A stretch of DNA of 64,000 bases, from positions 1-64,000 of the forward strand of contig NZ_JALJYG010000003.1 in the NCBI RefSeq assembly GCF_024170505.1. Direction: 5' to 3'. Shown here in pieces: positions 24,913 through 33,716 of the stretch; positions within the stretch are counted from its first letter, which is position 1; every line of letters begins with the position of its first letter. Below the pieces are notes generated by a model that saw only the letters and a list, made by a program, of their open reading frames with translations, ran no database searches and was not told the origin of the DNA. The position numbers and the translations under genes were made by a program. Origin of the DNA: Methanocalculus alkaliphilus. Its GTDB lineage: Archaea > Halobacteriota > Methanomicrobia > Methanomicrobiales > Methanocorpusculaceae.

Positions 24913-26682
24913 TCAGGTTGTTTCAAAAAGGCGGATCGTATCCTCGATCCCCTCTAATGCCGCATCCAGTTCACCCAGCCTGACCGCCACGGTATCTGCA
25001 TGCTTTTTTCTTTCCGTACATGCTGACGAGATAGCGCCATGGGTTGCCTCGATGGTGAGGGAGAGATGCGTTTCAAAATCTGTGCTGAATTTTCTGAATG
25101 CCGAATCAATATTCTGTATCGTCTCCCATCTGAGATTCTCAAGGTTTTGCACCAGCAACGATTCGATATGCCGCTGTGCACGATCCCTGGCACGTTTTTT
25201 CCGAACTGCTCCGGGTAACAATTTTCCGACAACGCCAGGGGGGACGGGAGAGAAGGTCCGATCCCATGCACGATCGATCCAGGAGGTCCGTCGTACCGGT
25301 TCGTATACCCGTTGTCCATCCGGGGCATGGTACGGAATATCAAAGAGATCAGCTGCAGCTTTCCGGATGGATTCGATCAGGAGGTCCGCCTGTACCTGAT
25401 GCTCTTTCAGGCGCATGGCGATCTCCCTGTCCATCCTCTCGGTGAGTTTCCCAAGTTCACCCTCAAACCATCCGGGGATAGCGTCTGCAAGAGCCTCCTG
25501 AGCTGCATTGTCCGGATCATCCTCCGAGTTCAGAATGGCATTCTCCGCAACCGAGGTGAGCATGTCACGAAGCGGATCGGAGAGATCCCTGATATGATTC
25601 TCAAGCAGTTCACGGACACGCTTGTGGTCGCCAGCCAGAATATCGCTCGTTGTTATTCTCCGGGAGTTGATCTCGCTGATTTTCCGGTCAAAGAGTGCAA
25701 GCCTCTCTTCAAGCTGGTTGAGAGGCAGTTTTCGTGCTTTTCTCTCAAGGCTCAGCTGGAGGTGGATCTCCCGGAAGATATCATATGCCTTTATCCCAAT
25801 TGCTTCTCTCAGGACACGATTCTTATCATGAGCGAGAAAGTTGACGATATGGTCGTAGATCGCTTTAAGCCCGCTCTCCTTCCAGAGTGCGGCATCCCCT
25901 GACAACTGAGCCTCAAGCCCTTGCCGTGCAGAAACGGCAAAAATCGGCGTTGCGGGATCAATGCCAGCATCCTGAATTAATATGGTGCGAAAAAAGTCAA
26001 GAGCCCTGACCCGGTCGGTATCGTTGAGATAATCGACCTTATTGAGAACAAAGAAGAGATACCCGACGCGGTTTTTCACTTCCCTGAGGAATGCAACCTC
26101 AACTTCGGTGATGGGTGGATCTGCGGAGATTACAAAGAGTGATGCATCACATTGCGGCAGGAAGTTCATCGTAGCTTCTGTATTGTGCCTGTATATCGAA
26201 CCGATGCCGGGGGTGTCAATCAGGACCACATCACGGAGCAGCTCTCCGGGATGATCGATCTCAACCTCGCGAATCCCTTTACAATTCTTTGGATTTTCAT
26301 CCTCACTGATATACTGCATCAACTGATTGTTCAGCCAGAGGGATGAGTCACCATTCAGTACAATGTCAGGCCTGGTATCAATATAACGAACCCTCAGTGT
26401 CTGCTGATCGCCATACCGGATAAATGTCGGAAGAGCGGTGAGCGGGATCACTGAGCTTGGGAGTACATCCTCTCCGATCAGCGCATTCAACAGTGTGCTC
26501 TTGCCACGCTTGACCTGGCCAAGAACCGCGAGATGGAATCTGCCCTCCAGAAGGCGCTCCTCAAGGTGACGCAGCCGCTCTGCATAATGCTGGCCCCACG
26601 AGCCATTCTCCTCCAGACGACGTTGTTGATCAGAAAGTACTTTCTCAAGATTTTCAGGAATTGATAGCCGTGTATCATCCAT
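24913..26682 (-). CDS. Dynamin-like large GTPase
   Basis: A 589-residue membrane-remodelling-type GTPase. The G domain lies at about residues 45-270: P-loop AVLGQVKRGKSTLLNAL, G2 threonine in VIPLTALPT, G3 VLIDTPGIGS and G4 FVLNKVDY. A long helical region follows, with a hydrophobic-poor middle and charged heptad-like stretches (LNQLEERLALFDRKISEINSRR; REAIGIKAYDIFREI). The ATG at 26682 has GGAGG about ten bases upstream, so the longer frame to 26772 is not used. Only one dynamin gene is present, whereas bacterial members often occur as pairs. Possible roles are membrane repair or stress tolerance (inference). Confidence 0.85.
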   Translation of the reverse strand: MDDTRLSIPENLEKVLSDQQRRLEENGSWGQHYAERLRHLEERLLEGRFHLAVLGQVKRGKSTLLNALIGEDVLPSSVIPLTALPTFIRYGDQQTLRVRYIDTRPDIVLNGDSSLWLNNQLMQYISEDENPKNCKGIREVEIDHPGELLRDVVLIDTPGIGSIYRHNTEATMNFLPQCDASLFVISADPPITEVEVAFLREVKNRVGYLFFVLNKVDYLNDTDRVRALDFFRTILIQDAGIDPATPIFAVSARQGLEAQLSGDAALWKESGLKAIYDHIVNFLAHDKNRVLREAIGIKAYDIFREIHLQLSLERKARKLPLNQLEERLALFDRKISEINSRRITTSDILAGDHKRVRELLENHIRDLSDPLRDMLTSVAENAILNSEDDPDNAAQEALADAIPGWFEGELGKLTERMDREIAMRLKEHQVQADLLIESIRKAAADLFDIPYHAPDGQRVYEPVRRTSWIDRAWDRTFSPVPPGVVGKLLPGAVRKKRARDRAQRHIESLLVQNLENLRWETIQNIDSAFRKFSTDFETHLSLTIEATHGAISSACTERKKHADTVAVRLGELDAALEGIEDTIRLFETT

Positions 26683-26851
26683 TGCCGTATTTCCTCCGGT
26701 TTTCATGCGAATAGCCGATACCTCTTCTGTTGACGTACCATTGGCATTCGGATGAGCAGGAGTTATCAGCACAAAATGCGGTTAACGGTGAACTCCATCA
26801 CCAGATAAAGATTATATGCCGACAAAGATAGTTAATCCTTTGTTTATCCGG

Positions 26852-26862: not shown

Positions 26863-26904
26863 GAAAAAGAAAACTATTTGCCGGATTACTCATCATCTTT
26901 AACA

Positions 26905-27267
<363 letters not shown>

Positions 27268-27287
27268 TGAATGCCGACATAGGTATG

Positions 27288-27297
27288 TTTAAATATA
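27288..27297 (+). promoter_or_regulatory. TATA box for tnpB
   Basis: tttaaatata lies about 25 bases before the tnpB ATG at 27319 with no ribosome binding site between. The message is therefore probably leaderless. Confidence 0.5.
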
Positions 27298-27318
27298 CTT
27301 TTGAGATATGTATATATA

Positions 27319-28449
27319 ATGCTTCTAACAGTGAAGGTGAAACTCCATCCAACCGAGGATCAGCACCAGAAACTGCTCCGTACAATGGAGCGTTTCAACG
27401 AAGCATGCAACTATATTTCAGAATTCGCCTGGAGAAACAAGGTTTTTAACAAAGTCGACCTTCAAAAGAACCTGTACTATGACATTCGCGGTACATTCTC
27501 CCTGTCATCTCAAATGGTAATTCGTGCGATTGGCAAAGTATCCGAAAGTTATCTTGCGGATCGATCCGGTTACCATGAGTTCAGGCCTCATGGAGCAATC
27601 ATCTATGATCAACGTATCCTGGCGATAAAGACTCCTGATACCTGTTCTATCCTGACACTTGACGGAAGAGAGATGGTATCGATGTCATATGGCAGATACC
27701 AGCCTCTCGATCTCAAACGGGTAAAGGGTCAGGCTGATCTCGTCCTCGTCAAGAACCAGTTCTATCTCCTGATCGTGGTAGACGTACCTGAAGAACCACA
27801 GATTGAACCTGAGGAGATCATCGGAGTCGATCTCGGTATCGCCAATATCGCAACAACATCGACAGGTGAAACCTTCTCCGGGCAGAAATGTACTGAATCC
27901 AGAAAGAGATACACCCGTATTAAAGCGGATCTTCAATCCGTTGGTACATGGGACGCAAAAAAACATCTCAAAAAACTCAGTGGAAAAGAACGCCGATTCA
28001 AGAATGATACAAACCACTGTATCAGCAAACAGATCGTCGCTGAAGCCAAAGGCACACAATCCGGTATCGCGTTGGAAGATCTGACAGGTATCCGTGATCG
28101 GACACCCGGTTATAAGGCGTTAGCAGCGGCAATCGGTAAATGGGCGTTTTATGAGATAGCAATGTACATCCGATATAAAGCACATATGGCTGGTATCCCG
28201 GTCTACCTCGTTGATCCCCAATATACATCCCAACAATGTTCTCATTGTGGATATACGAGCAGGGAAAACCGGAAAACCCAGTCTGACTTCTTCTGTATCA
28301 AATGTGGATATACGGATAATGCGGATATCAATGCCGCAAAAAACATTGCATCAAGGGCTGATGTCAACCAGCCTATCGCACTCCGTCCTGAACCTAAACG
28401 GTCAGGAAGATGGAAGGGCAAGCCCACGACTTCAGTCGTGGGTAGTTGA
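27319..28449 (+). CDS. tnpB: TnpB RNA-guided nuclease of the IS1341-type element
   Basis: TnpB proteins are small RNA-guided DNA nucleases related to Cas12. This 376-residue copy looks complete. It has an N-terminal helix-turn-helix region (LHPTEDQHQKLLRTMERFNEACNY), RuvC-I with Asp in GVDLGIANIATTS, RuvC-II with Glu in GIALEDLTGIRDR, a zinc ribbon (CSHCGY ... CIKCGY), and RuvC-III with Asp in NADINAAKNIA. The last residues (KPTTSVVGS) are encoded by the right-end stem-loop, so gene and guide-RNA scaffold overlap. It reads in the same direction as eno. Confidence 0.93.
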   Translation: MLLTVKVKLHPTEDQHQKLLRTMERFNEACNYISEFAWRNKVFNKVDLQKNLYYDIRGTFSLSSQMVIRAIGKVSESYLADRSGYHEFRPHGAIIYDQRILAIKTPDTCSILTLDGREMVSMSYGRYQPLDLKRVKGQADLVLVKNQFYLLIVVDVPEEPQIEPEEIIGVDLGIANIATTSTGETFSGQKCTESRKRYTRIKADLQSVGTWDAKKHLKKLSGKERRFKNDTNHCISKQIVAEAKGTQSGIALEDLTGIRDRTPGYKALAAAIGKWAFYEIAMYIRYKAHMAGIPVYLVDPQYTSQQCSHCGYTSRENRKTQSDFFCIKCGYTDNADINAAKNIASRADVNQPIALRPEPKRSGRWKGKPTTSVVGS

Positions 28450-28470
28450 CGAGGCGACTGAACTTCGTGA
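28350..28470 (+). ncRNA. Predicted omega RNA (reRNA) of the TnpB element
   Basis: In known TnpB systems the guide RNA is made from the 3-prime end of tnpB and the right end, and the guide begins at the element boundary. Here that would be the tnpB tail, the hairpin at 28423-28442, TAGTTGAC, and a guide starting at 28451 (gaggcgactg...). The 5-prime limit is a guess. The guide equals enolase coding sequence, so it would match an eno copy lacking the element, next to TTCAC. Confidence 0.5.
28423..28442. repeat. Right-end stem-loop of the TnpB element
   Basis: Second copy of the CCCACGAC-TTCA-GTCGTGGG hairpin, eight bases before the right cleavage site. It overlaps the last codons of tnpB. Confidence 0.9.
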
Positions 28471-29593
28471 CAATAATCATGAGCGGTTCATGGGAATGGG
28501 CGTTCTTACTGCCGTGGATCACGTGAATCGAACTCTCGCTCCATCCCTGATCGGAATGGATGCAGGAGATCAAAGGGCCATTGATCTGACCATGATTGAT
28601 TGTGATGGCACCCCGAATAAGAGCAGGATTGGTGCAAATGCGATTCTCGGAGTATCAATGGCAACAGCCCGCGCCGTTGCGCTATCACAGGGAATCCCGC
28701 TGTATGAGTATCTGAAGATAGATGCAGGATATCTGATGCCGGTCCCGATGATGAATGTTCTCAACGGAGGAGTGCACGCGCAATGGCAGGGAGCGGATTT
28801 TCAGGAATATATGATTGTCCCCTTCGGTGCCCCGGATTTTCGCACAGCACTTCAATGGGGGGCTGAAACCTATCATACATTACAGATCCTCCTGAAGAAG
28901 AAAGAGTACCCGACTGCTGTAGGGGATGAGGGTGGCTTTGCCCCGAAGGTGGCATCCAATGAAGAGCCGCTTGAGCTCATCACCGAATCAATTGAGGAGG
29001 CGGGATATACACCGGGCAGAGAGATTGGCATATCACTCGATCCTGCATCAAGCGGCTTCTTTTCTGATTCGAAATATGAACTGAAGCGTGAGGGGAGGAG
29101 ACTGGATAGCAACGAAATGATTGCATATTACCGATCACTTGTTGAATCATACCCCATCATCTCAATCGAGGATGGCCTTGCCGAAGATGACTGGAAAGGG
29201 TGGGTAAAACTGACAAATGAGCTTGGAGAGGATATCGAGATTATTGGAGATGATATCTTCGTCACATCCAGGCCGCTTGTACAGAGAGGAATTGAGACAG
29301 GGGCAGCAAATTCCGTGCTGATAAAGCTTAATCAGATTGGAACCGTTACCGAAACACTCAGCACAATCAGATCTGCACGGGATGCTGGCTGGGGTATCAA
29401 TATATCCCATAGGAGTGGAGAGACGTCCGATTCCTTCATTGCAGATTTTTCCATCGCCACATCCGCAGGAAAACTCAAGACCGGTGCACCCTGCCGGGGC
29501 GAACGTGTTGAGAAGTACAATCAGCTCCTGAGGATTGAGGAAGAATTAGGGAGTAAAGCAATGTACGCAGGAAGAAAGGCATTCATACGGTGA
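28451..29593 (+). pseudogene. eno: Enolase, 3-prime part
   Basis: Codons 49-428 of enolase, starting EATELRDNNHERFMG, continue without any stop or frameshift. Catalytic and binding segments are present: GANAILGVSMATARAVA, NVLNGGVHAQWQGADFQEYM, DEGGFAP, ISIEDGLAEDDWKGW, IIGDDIFVT, LIKLNQIGTVTET, ISHRSGETSDSFIADF. Joined to 27085-27228 it gives 428 residues, normal for enolase. The lack of decay suggests a recent insertion. A shortened product could start at an internal ATG near 28490 but would lack the N-terminal lid region. Confidence 0.9.
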
Positions 29594-30124: not shown

Positions 30125-30454
30125 TTATGGCCTTTTCCTGATCATCTGTACCTGCTGGATAATTACCAGCCCGTGCTCCACCATCTCCTCCACCTCAGGT
30201 ACAACAGCCATAATCCTCTCGCTTGTGTCTACCAGATCGATGACAACCGGAAGGTCCAGTGAAAGGTTAAAAACATCCACTGTCCTGAGTTTCTTCTCAT
30301 GACCAAAGCCGATCATACCCCGGAAGACGGTGCATCCTGGAAAGCCTTTCTCTTTGAAATACTCAACAAGAACCTTATACCCTGTTTTACCATTAATTTT
30401 CGCCGATTCAGCAATATAAATGCGAAGTAACAATCCATCGTCCAACATACTCAT
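30125..30454 (-). CDS. DUF190 family protein associated with fluoride channels
   Basis: A 109-residue soluble protein. The sequence LLRIYIAESAKINGKTGYKVLVEYFKEKGFPGCTVFRG, followed by GFGHEKKLRTVDVFNLSLDLPVVIDLVD, matches DUF190, a ferredoxin-like fold related to PII proteins that is commonly encoded next to crcB. It lies 10 bases after a crcB gene and is the last gene of the minus-strand fluoride operon. Its biochemical role in fluoride resistance is not known; a regulatory or ligand-binding role is inferred from fold. Confidence 0.85.
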   Translation of the reverse strand: MSMLDDGLLLRIYIAESAKINGKTGYKVLVEYFKEKGFPGCTVFRGMIGFGHEKKLRTVDVFNLSLDLPVVIDLVDTSERIMAVVPEVEEMVEHGLVIIQQVQMIRKRP

Positions 30455-30464
30455 TTCTCCATTC

Positions 30465-30815
30465 TTAGCAGCATAGTATCAGCAGATATCCAAGGCCCAC
30501 TCCAAGAATACTTCCTGCACAATTTAACAGGATATTTACCCCCATTGTGTTATAATCATGGTTTTCCAGCATCCTGAACGTCTCAAAGCTGAATGTTGAG
30601 AAGGTTGTCAATCCCCCAAGAGATCCGGTTGCTATGAGGCGAATCGAATCTTCAAACATAACCGAGAAGACGATAACGGATAGGAGGAAGCTGCCAATTA
30701 CATTAACGAGCAGCGTTCCGGTCGGAATACCCCCAAGCGGCTGAAGCTTTGAGATTTCGTACCTGAATACCGATCCGACAGCCCCTCCGATACCAAAAAG
30801 AAGTATGGATTCCAT
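30465..30815 (-). CDS. crcB: Fluoride channel subunit CrcB/Fluc
   Basis: Small membrane protein of 116 residues with four helices that exports fluoride as a dimer. It has GIGGAVGSVFRYEIS at the N-terminus including the conserved Arg, LLVNVIGSFLL with the pore Asn, and GGLTTFSTFSFETF, the phenylalanine-box and TFSTF region that bind Na+ and F-. A second, different crcB lies one base upstream, so the pair probably forms a heterodimer of opposite topology. The operon starts at a fluoride riboswitch near 33179. Confidence 0.94.
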   Translation of the reverse strand: MESILLFGIGGAVGSVFRYEISKLQPLGGIPTGTLLVNVIGSFLLSVIVFSVMFEDSIRLIATGSLGGLTTFSTFSFETFRMLENHDYNTMGVNILLNCAGSILGVGLGYLLILCC

Positions 30816-30816
30816 C

Positions 30817-31182
30817 TCAAATCCCTCGTTTGTAGGTTATCAGGTACCTGCCGATATAGATCCCGGAAAGCCCCATGAGGAGGTTCGTAATAATATTCAT
30901 AACTGCAATATGCGGAGTCGCAAGAAAAGTCTCCACAGCGAGCGTCGAAAATGAAGTGAACGACCCGGTCATACCAACTCCAAAGAAGAGACGCGCCTCA
31001 CGGCTGAATGCCCCGATGTAAATTGATTCGTACATAAAAATACCGATAAAGACACAGCCGACAACGTTCGCAAAAAGGGTTCCAGGGAGTGATGGAATCA
31101 ACTGTTCAACACATTTATGGAGAGCCGCCCCGATGAAGCCCCCCAGTGCGATGAGGAGGTAGAGAACATAATTACTCTTCAT
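30817..31182 (-). CDS. crcB: Fluoride channel subunit CrcB/Fluc, second copy
   Basis: A 121-residue four-helix protein of the Fluc family. It has GGFIGAALHKC where the first copy has an Arg, TLFANVVGCVFIG with the pore Asn, and TGSFTSFSTLAVETF with the conserved Phe residues. The C-terminal tail is basic (YKRGI), unlike the first copy, which fits opposite membrane orientation in a heterodimer (inference from charge distribution). It overlaps the winged-helix gene by 11 bases. Confidence 0.93.
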   Translation of the reverse strand: MKSNYVLYLLIALGGFIGAALHKCVEQLIPSLPGTLFANVVGCVFIGIFMYESIYIGAFSREARLFFGVGMTGSFTSFSTLAVETFLATPHIAVMNIITNLLMGLSGIYIGRYLITYKRGI

Positions 31183-31834
31183 TCTGTGTTTCTCCTGTCA
31201 GAATTTCCGGATAATTCGTATTAGATTCCCGGAGTTTCGCTGCCTCATGTGATAGAGAAGCTCTCGCTTTGCCGATTACGTCTGCAAACCCCTCACCAAG
31301 ACCGCCGTACCTGATGTCCCGTATTACACCATGAAGGAAAATCTGGTAATAGATGCATTTCTCATCAAATTCAGGCTCGGAGAGGCCGGAAAGCTGATTT
31401 ACGAGGATCGTCTGGCGATATATCTTTCGTATTTCATCAGGAGATTCAAAATGACATAACGTGTCAAAGAACGTATGCGAAGCTCTGACCATCTCATCAA
31501 TAAGCTCCGGCAGATCGCCGTGCAGGGTTTTGAATGGTCCGGTAAAAATCTCGCAGAACCACGGTACTCTTCGAATCTCCGGGCGTAGATCATGAAATTC
31601 CGGATAGTGATAGACCTTCAGCAGTGCTTCGCGATTCCGGTTCAACTGGCAACAATGTCCCGTCCCTCCCTTCTCTTTCTTTCTTACGATAAATCCGGCC
31701 CGTTCAAACGAATCTATCCATTTCCTGATCGTCGCTACCCTGGTAAACCCGACACCGGTTGCGAGATCGATCTCACGGTGGGATTTGCCATCAAGCAGAA
31801 TCCGCATCAGCGGAGCCTTGACCGGTGATTTCAA
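31172..31834 (-). CDS. Winged-helix protein in the fluoride operon
   Basis: The first 75 residues form a winged helix-turn-helix domain (LMRILLDGKSHREIDLATGVGFTRVATIRKWIDSFERAGFIVRKK with a KGGTG wing). The remaining 145 residues are an alpha-helical domain I do not recognise, with aromatic and acidic residues that could form a ligand pocket. The start is a TTG at 31834 with a strong AAGGAGG ten bases before; an ATG at 31807 is an alternative. It overlaps both neighbours: by four bases the zinc-ribbon/HEAT gene and by 11 bases crcB. It may regulate this operon or other fluoride genes (inference). Confidence 0.78.
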   Translation of the reverse strand: MKSPVKAPLMRILLDGKSHREIDLATGVGFTRVATIRKWIDSFERAGFIVRKKEKGGTGHCCQLNRNREALLKVYHYPEFHDLRPEIRRVPWFCEIFTGPFKTLHGDLPELIDEMVRASHTFFDTLCHFESPDEIRKIYRQTILVNQLSGLSEPEFDEKCIYYQIFLHGVIRDIRYGGLGEGFADVIGKARASLSHEAAKLRESNTNYPEILTGETQNEE

Positions 31835-32226
31835 GGAAGGAGTTCCTCCTTACCCGTGTCAGAGACGGTCCGGCAGGCCTTTCGCACTACCACAGACGGG
31901 TGGTGATTCAGCCTTTCCAGTAAGCGGCGGCTTTCATCAGTGCAGAGTAATGAGAGGGAAAAAACGATCTCCCGCAGAAGATACACATCCGTTTCGGTAG
32001 TGACAAGATGTGCAAATACCGGTAGTGCAGGTTCAAACCTCAGTTGCCCGAGTATCTGTATCGCAATCATTCGTTGTGCCGGGATCGGATGGTTCAGGGA
32101 ATGAAGGAGACGTTCCTCATATGGAGTTTGTCTCCAGGAATCAAGGCCTTTTCCGCATACAGGGCAGACCTGGAGATCAGTTGATCCTTCAGCCCAGCAA
32201 AAGGGACAGAAATACGTTATGCTCAT
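31831..32226 (-). CDS. Zinc-ribbon and HEAT-repeat-like protein
   Basis: A 131-residue protein. The N-terminus has a zinc ribbon with CPFC and CPVCGKG about 14 residues apart. The rest reads as two or three short helical repeats typical of HEAT-like folds (RMIAIQILGQLRFEPALPVFAHLV, LLREIVFSLSLLCTDESRRLLERL). HEAT-like repeats usually bind other proteins, so it may be a scaffold. It lies 15 bases after the toroid protein gene and overlaps the winged-helix gene. Function is unknown. Confidence 0.72.
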   Translation of the reverse strand: MSITYFCPFCWAEGSTDLQVCPVCGKGLDSWRQTPYEERLLHSLNHPIPAQRMIAIQILGQLRFEPALPVFAHLVTTETDVYLLREIVFSLSLLCTDESRRLLERLNHHPSVVVRKACRTVSDTGKEELLP

Positions 32227-32241
32227 CTCCGGAGACCACCC

Positions 32242-33120
32242 TCAGGCAACTGCCAGGAGATCAGATCTCCCTTCGGCATTATCATTTCGGCTAATCCTGA
32301 TCATCCGCAATGCATCCAGCGCGTAATACGTATTTTCCAGCGTCGTCGAACCTCCAAAAATCGATCGTACATATCCACCGTTTGCATGGTAGCATCTCCG
32401 AATGAATGATTCACAGTGGCGAAGGAAAGAGGAACGGTATCCGAGGATTGAGGATGCAAGAAGGCCGGCATGAACATCCTCAAGATACGAGGGGCGTACG
32501 CCGGGCATGGGAAGAAAACCATATTCCAGGTCCTCACAACGCTGAATGAATAGCTCAGACCCAGGTACTGCAACAGGGTACCCAAGATTATGAAGTATTG
32601 AGAGAGCATGAGAGGTTTCTGCCATGGTTGGAGATTGAGAGCCAAACCCCCCCTCATTATTTCTCTGATTACGAACTGCAGTACCGATTGTTTCGCATCT
32701 CTTTTCGGGAAGGGTGATGCTCAGGCACCGGCAGAGACTGGTCAGAAGATACAACTGCCATAAGCCAGAAGACGATTCTATCGGCCGGGTTCGATCAGAC
32801 GGCGGGAGGAGCGAAGAGAGGATCCAGTCTGATGGGTCCCTGGATGGCTTGTCGCCGAGAAGAATCAGGCTTCTGATCACCGCATATCCGACATACACAT
32901 TTGAGAAACTGCCATCCTCTCTCTGAAATGTATGAAGAAATGAGAGAGTATCTTCATCGTCTTCAGGGATCGAATCGAGCATCTGAAGCGATGCAAGAGC
33001 ATAGTATGTATCGGAGGCATTTGGTTCATTCAGGCGGTAAAAACAATATCCGCCATCCTGACACCGTCTTTCCCGAATATACCGGATAGTGAACTGAAAA
33101 GGATGTATCATCGGCATCAT
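32242..33120 (-). CDS. Prenyltransferase/squalene-cyclase-like alpha-alpha toroid protein
   Basis: A 292-residue protein with about five repeats of the type seen in prenyltransferase beta subunits and squalene cyclases. Recurrent units are CQDGGYCFYR, DTYYALASLQML, REDGSFSNVYVGYAVIRSLILLG, NNEGGFGSQSPTMAETSHAL, DVHAGLLASSILG, ANGGYVRSIFG and TTLENTYYALDALRMI. I see no DCTAE cyclase motif, so it may be a binding or isoprenoid-interacting protein. Its ATG directly follows the fluoride riboswitch hairpin at 33121-33137, making it the first gene under fluoride control. This link is unexpected. Confidence 0.78.
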   Translation of the reverse strand: MMPMIHPFQFTIRYIRERRCQDGGYCFYRLNEPNASDTYYALASLQMLDSIPEDDEDTLSFLHTFQREDGSFSNVYVGYAVIRSLILLGDKPSRDPSDWILSSLLPPSDRTRPIESSSGLWQLYLLTSLCRCLSITLPEKRCETIGTAVRNQRNNEGGFGSQSPTMAETSHALSILHNLGYPVAVPGSELFIQRCEDLEYGFLPMPGVRPSYLEDVHAGLLASSILGYRSSFLRHCESFIRRCYHANGGYVRSIFGGSTTLENTYYALDALRMIRISRNDNAEGRSDLLAVA

Positions 33121-33185
33121 CTACCATTATCTGGTAGAAGTCATCAGCCGACGAGGCAGTTTTGGCGGACTTCATCGCCATTGGA
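33121..33185 (-). ncRNA. Fluoride riboswitch (crcB motif) before the crcB operon
   Basis: Read on the minus strand from 33179: GGCGATGAAGTCCGCC, then AAAACT, a short GCC/GGC hairpin, and GGCTGATGACTTCTAC (to 33134). This matches the crcB consensus and the copy before eno almost base for base. The 3-prime CTACCA then forms a 6-base hairpin with TGGTAG (33121-33137, loop GATAA) that abuts the ATG at 33120. The aptamer 3-prime end and this hairpin share bases, suggesting a switch that hides or frees the start codon. The mechanism is inferred; the aptamer match is strong. Confidence 0.9.
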
Positions 33186-33212
33186 AATACTATTGGAGAT
33201 TCAGAGAGTGTA

Positions 33213-33692
33213 TCACTTGTCTTGTGTACAGACACAATCTGAGCATAAAAACCTGATCGTCATATCACCATGCACAAGATCACCGATGATCTTCTTGGCA
33301 CCACCGAAGAATATGACCCGTCTGCATGTGGAGCACCGTTTCGGAAGTATCCTCTCCATCCTCGAGAGATCCGCATCAAGCGCAAACCGGGTGTTCTCAC
33401 CGGGGACGGCCGGGCATTCGCCCTCCTCATCGATCCTGGAAAGGAGTCTGTATACCTGAAGCGGATGCGCTCCATACTCCTGGAATTTTCTAAAGAGGAA
33501 ATACTGCAGCACAAGCCATGATAATTCTGACCGCTCGATGCTGTCATCAAACTGGATCTCTTCCTCTGAGGCATCAACATCACCGACTGATGAACCACAG
33601 AGGGGGCAGTCACCGCCGACGAGCTCTTCAATATAAACTTCTTCACGACACCCAGGGCATGTGGTGTGGCGTGCGTGTGTACGATATCCCAT
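33213..33692 (-). CDS. Zinc-ribbon protein of unknown function
   Basis: A 159-residue protein with two likely zinc sites: CPGCREEVYIEELVGGDC with PLCG near the N-terminus, and CSTCRRVIFFGG with a later CSDCVC near the C-terminus. The middle part is acidic and helical. The ATG at 33692 gives the cysteine motif close to the start; a further upstream start at 33716 is possible. It lies 28 bases upstream of the fluoride riboswitch on the same strand. Whether it belongs to the same transcript is open. Confidence 0.68.
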   Translation of the reverse strand: MGYRTHARHTTCPGCREEVYIEELVGGDCPLCGSSVGDVDASEEEIQFDDSIERSELSWLVLQYFLFRKFQEYGAHPLQVYRLLSRIDEEGECPAVPGENTRFALDADLSRMERILPKRCSTCRRVIFFGGAKKIIGDLVHGDMTIRFLCSDCVCTQDK

Positions 33693-33716
33693 ACCTTTCT
33701 CTCCGGACTCAACCAT

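Follow-up and report, generated by a model that had tools for sequence, protein, structure and literature searches.

A predicted start-codon variant of the fluoride riboswitch ahead of a six-gene operon in Methanocalculus alkaliphilus

How might a fluoride aptamer control a gene that begins almost directly behind it, at an ATG with no ribosome binding site? The question arises on the minus strand of the window (the whole stretch of 64,000 nucleotides of Methanocalculus alkaliphilus DNA that was analysed), where a first-pass annotation, made from the sequence, had placed a second fluoride aptamer (33179-33134) and, overlapping its end, a CTACCA/TGGTAG hairpin at the start codon of the next gene. 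From the sequence and from folding models we consider it probable that this aptamer acts as a translational ON switch for the six-gene fluoride-efflux operon at 33120-30125.

The aptamer and the genes around it

The covariance model of the fluoride riboswitch (RF01734) matches the proposed aptamer over its full length and scores 55.6 bits, where the gathering score is 34. This is one of three fluoride aptamers that Rfam identifies in the 64-kb window (33188-33128(-), 26811-26750(-) and 26902-26962(+)); a genome-wide Rfam scan returned the same three and none further. The parts of the aptamer are listed below; the numbering (A40 = 33144, U48 = 33136) is our own alignment to the published aptamer fold.

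33128..33188, minus strand: fluoride riboswitch aptamer (RF01734; Rfam 55.6 bits, model 1-64, E 1e-12)
33168..33173, minus strand: GAAGUC in the loop of the first hairpin, the 5' partner of the pseudoknot and complementary to 33142-33137; placed via the Rfam alignment and the known fold of the aptamer
33137..33142, minus strand: pseudoknot 3' strand GACUUC, G42-C47 in T. petrophila numbering; read from the sequence, with the numbering taken from the published fold
33136, minus strand: linchpin U48, the partner of A40 at 33144; U48 is present in every aptamer tabulated

At the level of sequence, both the GAAGUC/GACUUC complementarity and the A40-U48 linchpin are present; the aptamer tail reads GACUUCUACCAGAUAAUGGUAGAUGAUGCCGAUGAUA. 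The linchpin role of A40-U48 has been published for the fluoride aptamer, and opening of the linchpin allows the expression platform to invade the pseudoknot (PMC11077080).

The genes on the same strand are as follows.

33213..33716, minus strand: upstream gene in the same direction, Cys-rich product of 167 aa; 24 nt separate its end from the aptamer match
32242..33120, minus strand: first regulated gene, alpha/alpha-toroid protein (PF00432), 292 aa from ATG 33120; Pfam, structure model, Foldseek
31831..32226, minus strand: HEAT-repeat-like protein, 131 aa; PF13646, E 1.1e-5, just below the curated cut-off
31172..31834, minus strand: 220-aa protein, winged-helix-like by eye only; no Pfam or NCBIfam match, kept in relatives
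30817..31182, minus strand: CrcB fluoride channel subunit 1 (PF02537)
30465..30815, minus strand: CrcB fluoride channel subunit 2 (PF02537)
30125..30454, minus strand: DUF190 (COG1993) protein (PF02641)

The six genes behind the aptamer are tightly spaced or overlap, and the row includes fluoride-resistance genes (the two CrcB genes and DUF190); the order of the first three (toroid, HEAT, 220-aa) is kept in five related genomes (G002, G006, G162, G164 and G181). The 167-aa upstream protein has no match in Pfam or NCBIfam; a relative of its gene occupies the same place in G002 and G006 but is absent from the Methanoregula loci, in which conservation of the upstream DNA begins roughly 50 nt before the aptamer and, by eye, fits a promoter there. 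In the window, inspection by eye found no clear promoter just upstream of the aptamer. Because the 167-aa gene is co-directional and lies just upstream, the aptamer may be read from mid-operon; translational control would then be the natural choice.

The aptamer at 26811-26750(-) precedes a gene for a dynamin-like GTPase (24913-26772(-)) whose ATG has a good Shine-Dalgarno sequence and is located 75 nt from U48, compared with 13-22 nt in the 27 toroid-gene loci described below; several genomes of the order have the same row of aptamer, dynamin-like GTPase and enolase. Behind the aptamer at 26902-26962(+), the enolase gene (27088-29593(+)) is split by an IS605-type TnpB element (27244-28442) that has identical 23-bp copies at both ends and after which the enolase continues; a second, intact enolase (396 aa) is encoded on contig C8.

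The predicted fold over the start of the first gene

Folding yields the following elements.

33120..33138, minus strand: anti-aptamer hairpin UCUACCA-GAUAA-UGGUAGA, 7 bp, -8.4 kcal/mol; the last A is the A of ATG 33120
33147..33154, minus strand: outer helix 5' strand UCGUCGGC, from the third stem and loop of the aptamer (predicted apo fold)
33108..33115, minus strand: outer helix 3' strand GCCGAUGA, from the last base of codon 2 to codon 5, over ATG 33111 (predicted apo fold)

The CTACCA-GATAA-TGGTAG hairpin is found at 33137-33121, where the first-pass annotation had it end one base short of the gene; in the folded model U46 (33138) also pairs with the A of ATG 33120, which brings the stem to seven pairs and takes in the first base of the start codon. 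Homologous loci keep the same hairpin foot at the start codon. The 5' arm takes U46, C47 and the linchpin U48 of the aptamer (numbering inferred), in agreement with the earlier proposal that the two folds exclude each other. A 7-bp helix arises in 27 of 5000 shuffles of the tail (p = 0.005), and the motif TCTACC..GGTRGATG occurs once in the 64 kb, with 0.02 occurrences expected.

The predicted apo fold retains this hairpin but is larger than the annotation had it: the first aptamer hairpin is kept, the third stem is opened, and the 3' side of the third stem (33154-33147) pairs with codons 2-5 (33115-33108), enclosing the inner hairpin and covering ATG 33111. With this second helix, all three in-frame ATGs (33120, 33117 and 33111) are involved. 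The fold of 33188-33100 has an energy of -29.2 kcal/mol, compared with a mean of -17.2 for shuffled sequences (z = -4.2; none of 200 shuffles is as stable); these energies are predictions from a folding model without pseudoknots. When U46-U48 are withheld, as is expected of the bound aptamer, the window hairpin falls from -8.4 to -2.6 kcal/mol, with a similar drop in the other loci; when positions 42-48 are blocked, ATG 33111 is still mostly paired, and a 4-bp remnant of the hairpin could persist in the fluoride-bound state. As in a translational riboswitch, then, the predicted alternative fold uses some of the aptamer's own bases and would mask the initiation region.

The usual, although not obligatory, target of such masking is a Shine-Dalgarno sequence. 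Pairing was calculated with the anti-Shine-Dalgarno sequence GGATCACCTCCT, taken from the identical 16S tails of three relatives because the assembly to which the window belongs yielded no 16S rRNA. The best pairing at ATG 33120 is 3 bp (-2.9 kcal/mol), so the start lacks a real Shine-Dalgarno sequence, as the annotation had noted, whereas the following genes of the operon mostly have one (-12.8, -13.1, -7.1, -9.8 and -6.4 kcal/mol). Other genes in the window are similarly weak (-3.0 and -1.5), so a missing Shine-Dalgarno sequence alone is not rare. With no such sequence to be masked at ATG 33120, we have filed the switch, from its sequence, as a start-codon variant and not as a classical Shine-Dalgarno-masking switch.

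We propose that, without fluoride, UGGUAGA would capture the aptamer 3' end (U46-U48) and codons 2-5 would capture the third-stem strand of the aptamer; the initiation region (ATG 33120, 33117 and 33111) would then be in or beside two helices, so the ribosome could not settle. Fluoride would close the pseudoknot and the A40-U48 linchpin, keeping U46-U48 from the hairpin; the hairpin would shrink to a weak 4-bp stem, the initiation region would be freed, and the signal would pass down the operon through the tight gene spacing. In this scheme fluoride binding, ribosome exclusion and the operon-wide effect are inferred.

Recurrence in relatives and competing explanations

We tabulated 27 archaeal loci in which a toroid gene lies directly behind a fluoride aptamer. 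The distance from U48 to the start is 13-22 nt in all 27, and in eight the hairpin ends exactly on the A of ATG: the window, G002 and G006 (Methanocalculus) and G162, G164, G170, G181 and G187 (Methanoregula). These eight loci are homologous, not independent; their arms are nearly constant, their loops differ in length and sequence, and both helices are present in the minimum-energy fold of every leader, with an outer helix of the GGC/GCC type. The G006 leader has the same fold as the window (z = -4.8), and the other six have z values from -0.7 to -2.7; the folding energy is clearly unusual for the window and G006, less so for G187, and the remaining leaders lie between -0.7 and -1.8. A search with the fuller hairpin pattern identified 7 of the 232 genomes of the order, always at toroid-gene aptamers, and the reversed control was empty. 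Looser forms occur in G141 (hairpin 9 nt further upstream, arm GGUGGA) and G039 (hairpin overlying a GTG). A hairpin common to all relatives was rejected, since 17 of the 27 loci lack it or have no clear example; because most other relatives have different or no clear platforms, the hairpin-foot form is, judged from the leaders, the trait of one clade.

The arms hardly vary within the archaeal clade, so covariation among the archaeal arms alone is not significant. Two loci from bacterial bins (L166 and L167) have hairpins with other arm sequences, in which the 3' arm ends beside or on the A of ATG, in leaders with z = -3.8 and -5.4. When these are aligned with the archaeal arms, pairing is 100% over the six inner pairs and two of the pairs change on both sides; 7 of 500 shuffles reach this covariation score. 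The 12-base alignment was built by hand from chosen arms and is biased towards a helix.

Pairings of other kinds are seen elsewhere. In the relatives grouped as B they include helices with the 5' flank in Methanoculleus-type loci and pairing of a Shine-Dalgarno sequence with the pseudoknot strand (G219 and G221). Ahead of the same gene in Methanoculleus-type loci, a different anti-aptamer helix of about 10 bp can form between the 5' flank CAUGCAGGCG and the end of the aptamer, CGUCUGCAUG (L036 14704-14765 in G045, L043 5725-5786 in G050, and L127 in G113). Methanoculleus-type aptamers before CrcB (L036 4709-4773, L037 4211-4275, L038 6202-6266 and L044 6034-6098) have the common tail GUCUAUUUUCCG..GGACGU and a U-run directly after the aptamer; pairing of GGACGU with the pseudoknot strand would make another platform. 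At L035 3776-3836 and L040 5826-5887, UACCC of the aptamer tail pairs with a downstream GGGUG/AGGUG and encloses the Shine-Dalgarno sequence GGGAGGA and the ATG of an unnamed gene; L040 8086-8197 (G037) contains a tandem pair of fluoride aptamers whose model ends overlap by about 12 nt.

The protein starts of the remaining relatives align with the Met of ATG 33111, at which the anti-Shine-Dalgarno pairing is -9.1 kcal/mol (-2.9 for ATG 33120), and CCGATG is conserved in all eight hairpin-foot loci; the start could thus be ATG 33111, with the 3' arm GGUAGAUGAU roughly at the position of a Shine-Dalgarno sequence. The locus would still be a translational ON switch, with the arm as a poor, interrupted Shine-Dalgarno sequence in an ordinary sequestering stem, and the arms AGGUG (G006), GGAGGUG (G039) and GGUGGA (G141) in related leaders point the same way. 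However, the pairing is gapped and runs right to the ATG itself; GGUAGA, which is complementary to UCUACC by Watson-Crick pairing, is retained in most of the eight leaders in place of the better Shine-Dalgarno sequence GGUG(A); and G039 has no downstream ATG, only the GTG at the hairpin; we regard this start as rather unlikely. Both ATGs are inside the predicted masked region. A hairpin that is incidental to a working aptamer is a more doubtful explanation: the tail resembles an anti-Shine-Dalgarno sequence, so default pairing would be expected with any GGUG-like initiation sequence nearby; the aptamer dictates the 5' arm, and no significant covariation is seen in the archaeal arms. Yet the window arm GGUAG is a poor Shine-Dalgarno sequence and a perfect complement, other relatives whose tail is also UCUACC have no arm of this kind, and both arms change together in the bacterial loci.

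Intrinsic termination in archaea relies on U-tracts and does not need hairpins. No terminator-like site was found here, no U-tract follows the stem, and the reading frame is directly behind it, so the terminator reading was rejected. We therefore consider it very unlikely that the anti-aptamer fold serves as a terminator with the aptamer as its antiterminator, the arrangement of Bacillus cereus crcB, although this is the mode of the best-studied fluoride riboswitch (PMC11077080) and the overlap with the pseudoknot strand and linchpin is the same. That the aptamer is a relic, untranscribed or no longer regulating, with the operon expressed constitutively from the promoter of the upstream gene, would accommodate the lack of a clear promoter just upstream (judged by eye; the sigma-70 scan does not cover archaea), but the aptamer is intact in its Rfam score, linchpin and stems, three genomes of the genus preserve the layout at about 60% protein identity, and transcription running on from the upstream gene would include the aptamer in any case; this reading is barely credible.

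The toroid family and comparison with known systems

Pfam (PF00432, 49.1 bits), a structure model (pLDDT 90) and Foldseek all assign a toroid fold to the first gene product; the best Foldseek matches are the beta subunits of farnesyl- and geranylgeranyltransferases (E 9e-7, TM about 0.7, 12-18% identity). The protein has no NCBIfam name and no sequence match in the PDB. A single-sequence search of the genome contigs with it gave no match, but an alignment-based search found relatives. The proteins are about 290 aa long and have their own invariant motif, RRCxxGGYC..EPN..DT. The family is present in 39 of the 232 Methanomicrobiales genomes; 38 of these 39 have a fluoride aptamer, compared with 33 of the 193 others (Fisher p about 1e-22, without correction for relatedness). 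The relatives from bacterial bins, several of which are named Syntrophales or Deltaproteobacteria, have a fluoride aptamer within about 3.4 kb at most loci checked (16 of the 20 scanned). A link between this family and fluoride is not mentioned in the literature searched, which left out most subscription papers. Its sequence context makes the family a candidate for a missing component of fluoride resistance in addition to CrcB. Across an archaeal order, and in bacteria from the same habitats, a family without an assigned role accompanies fluoride aptamers, and we see this as a fresher result than the switch itself. We advance more tentatively, as somewhat short of an even chance, the joint proposal that a clade of fluoride switches clamps the start and first codons without a Shine-Dalgarno sequence and governs an unrecognised, farnesyltransferase-beta-like family of fluoride-resistance proteins in methanogens and syntrophic bacteria.

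To our knowledge, few archaeal riboswitches have been tested so far; the short leader described here would allow start-codon masking without a Shine-Dalgarno sequence to be tested by arm swaps.

The aptamer itself is no different from the crcB motif (RF01734), with the same sequence, stems and linchpin A and U and the same control of CrcB/DUF190-type genes. Fluoride riboswitches of Burkholderia pseudomallei and Pseudomonas syringae have been used as translational controls (PMC13273304), and PMC11077080 cites a translational fluoride riboswitch from an archaeal hyperthermophile. Because translational fluoride switches are already known, the window switch is a variant; it is like them in that the aptamer adjoins the gene start and there is no terminator, and it is set apart, by comparison with their published descriptions, by a predicted stem that ends on a start codon without a Shine-Dalgarno sequence and by a second helix that recruits coding sequence. 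As in the transcriptional crcB switch of Bacillus cereus, a competing stem would invade the pseudoknot 3' strand and U48; in contrast, the window switch has no terminator, and its invading strand ends at the start codon. The first gene product shares its fold with the prenyltransferase beta subunits and other PF00432 toroids (FTase, RabGGTase and squalene-hopene cyclases) but is distinguished from them by its low identity, its own motif and a genome context of fluoride resistance.
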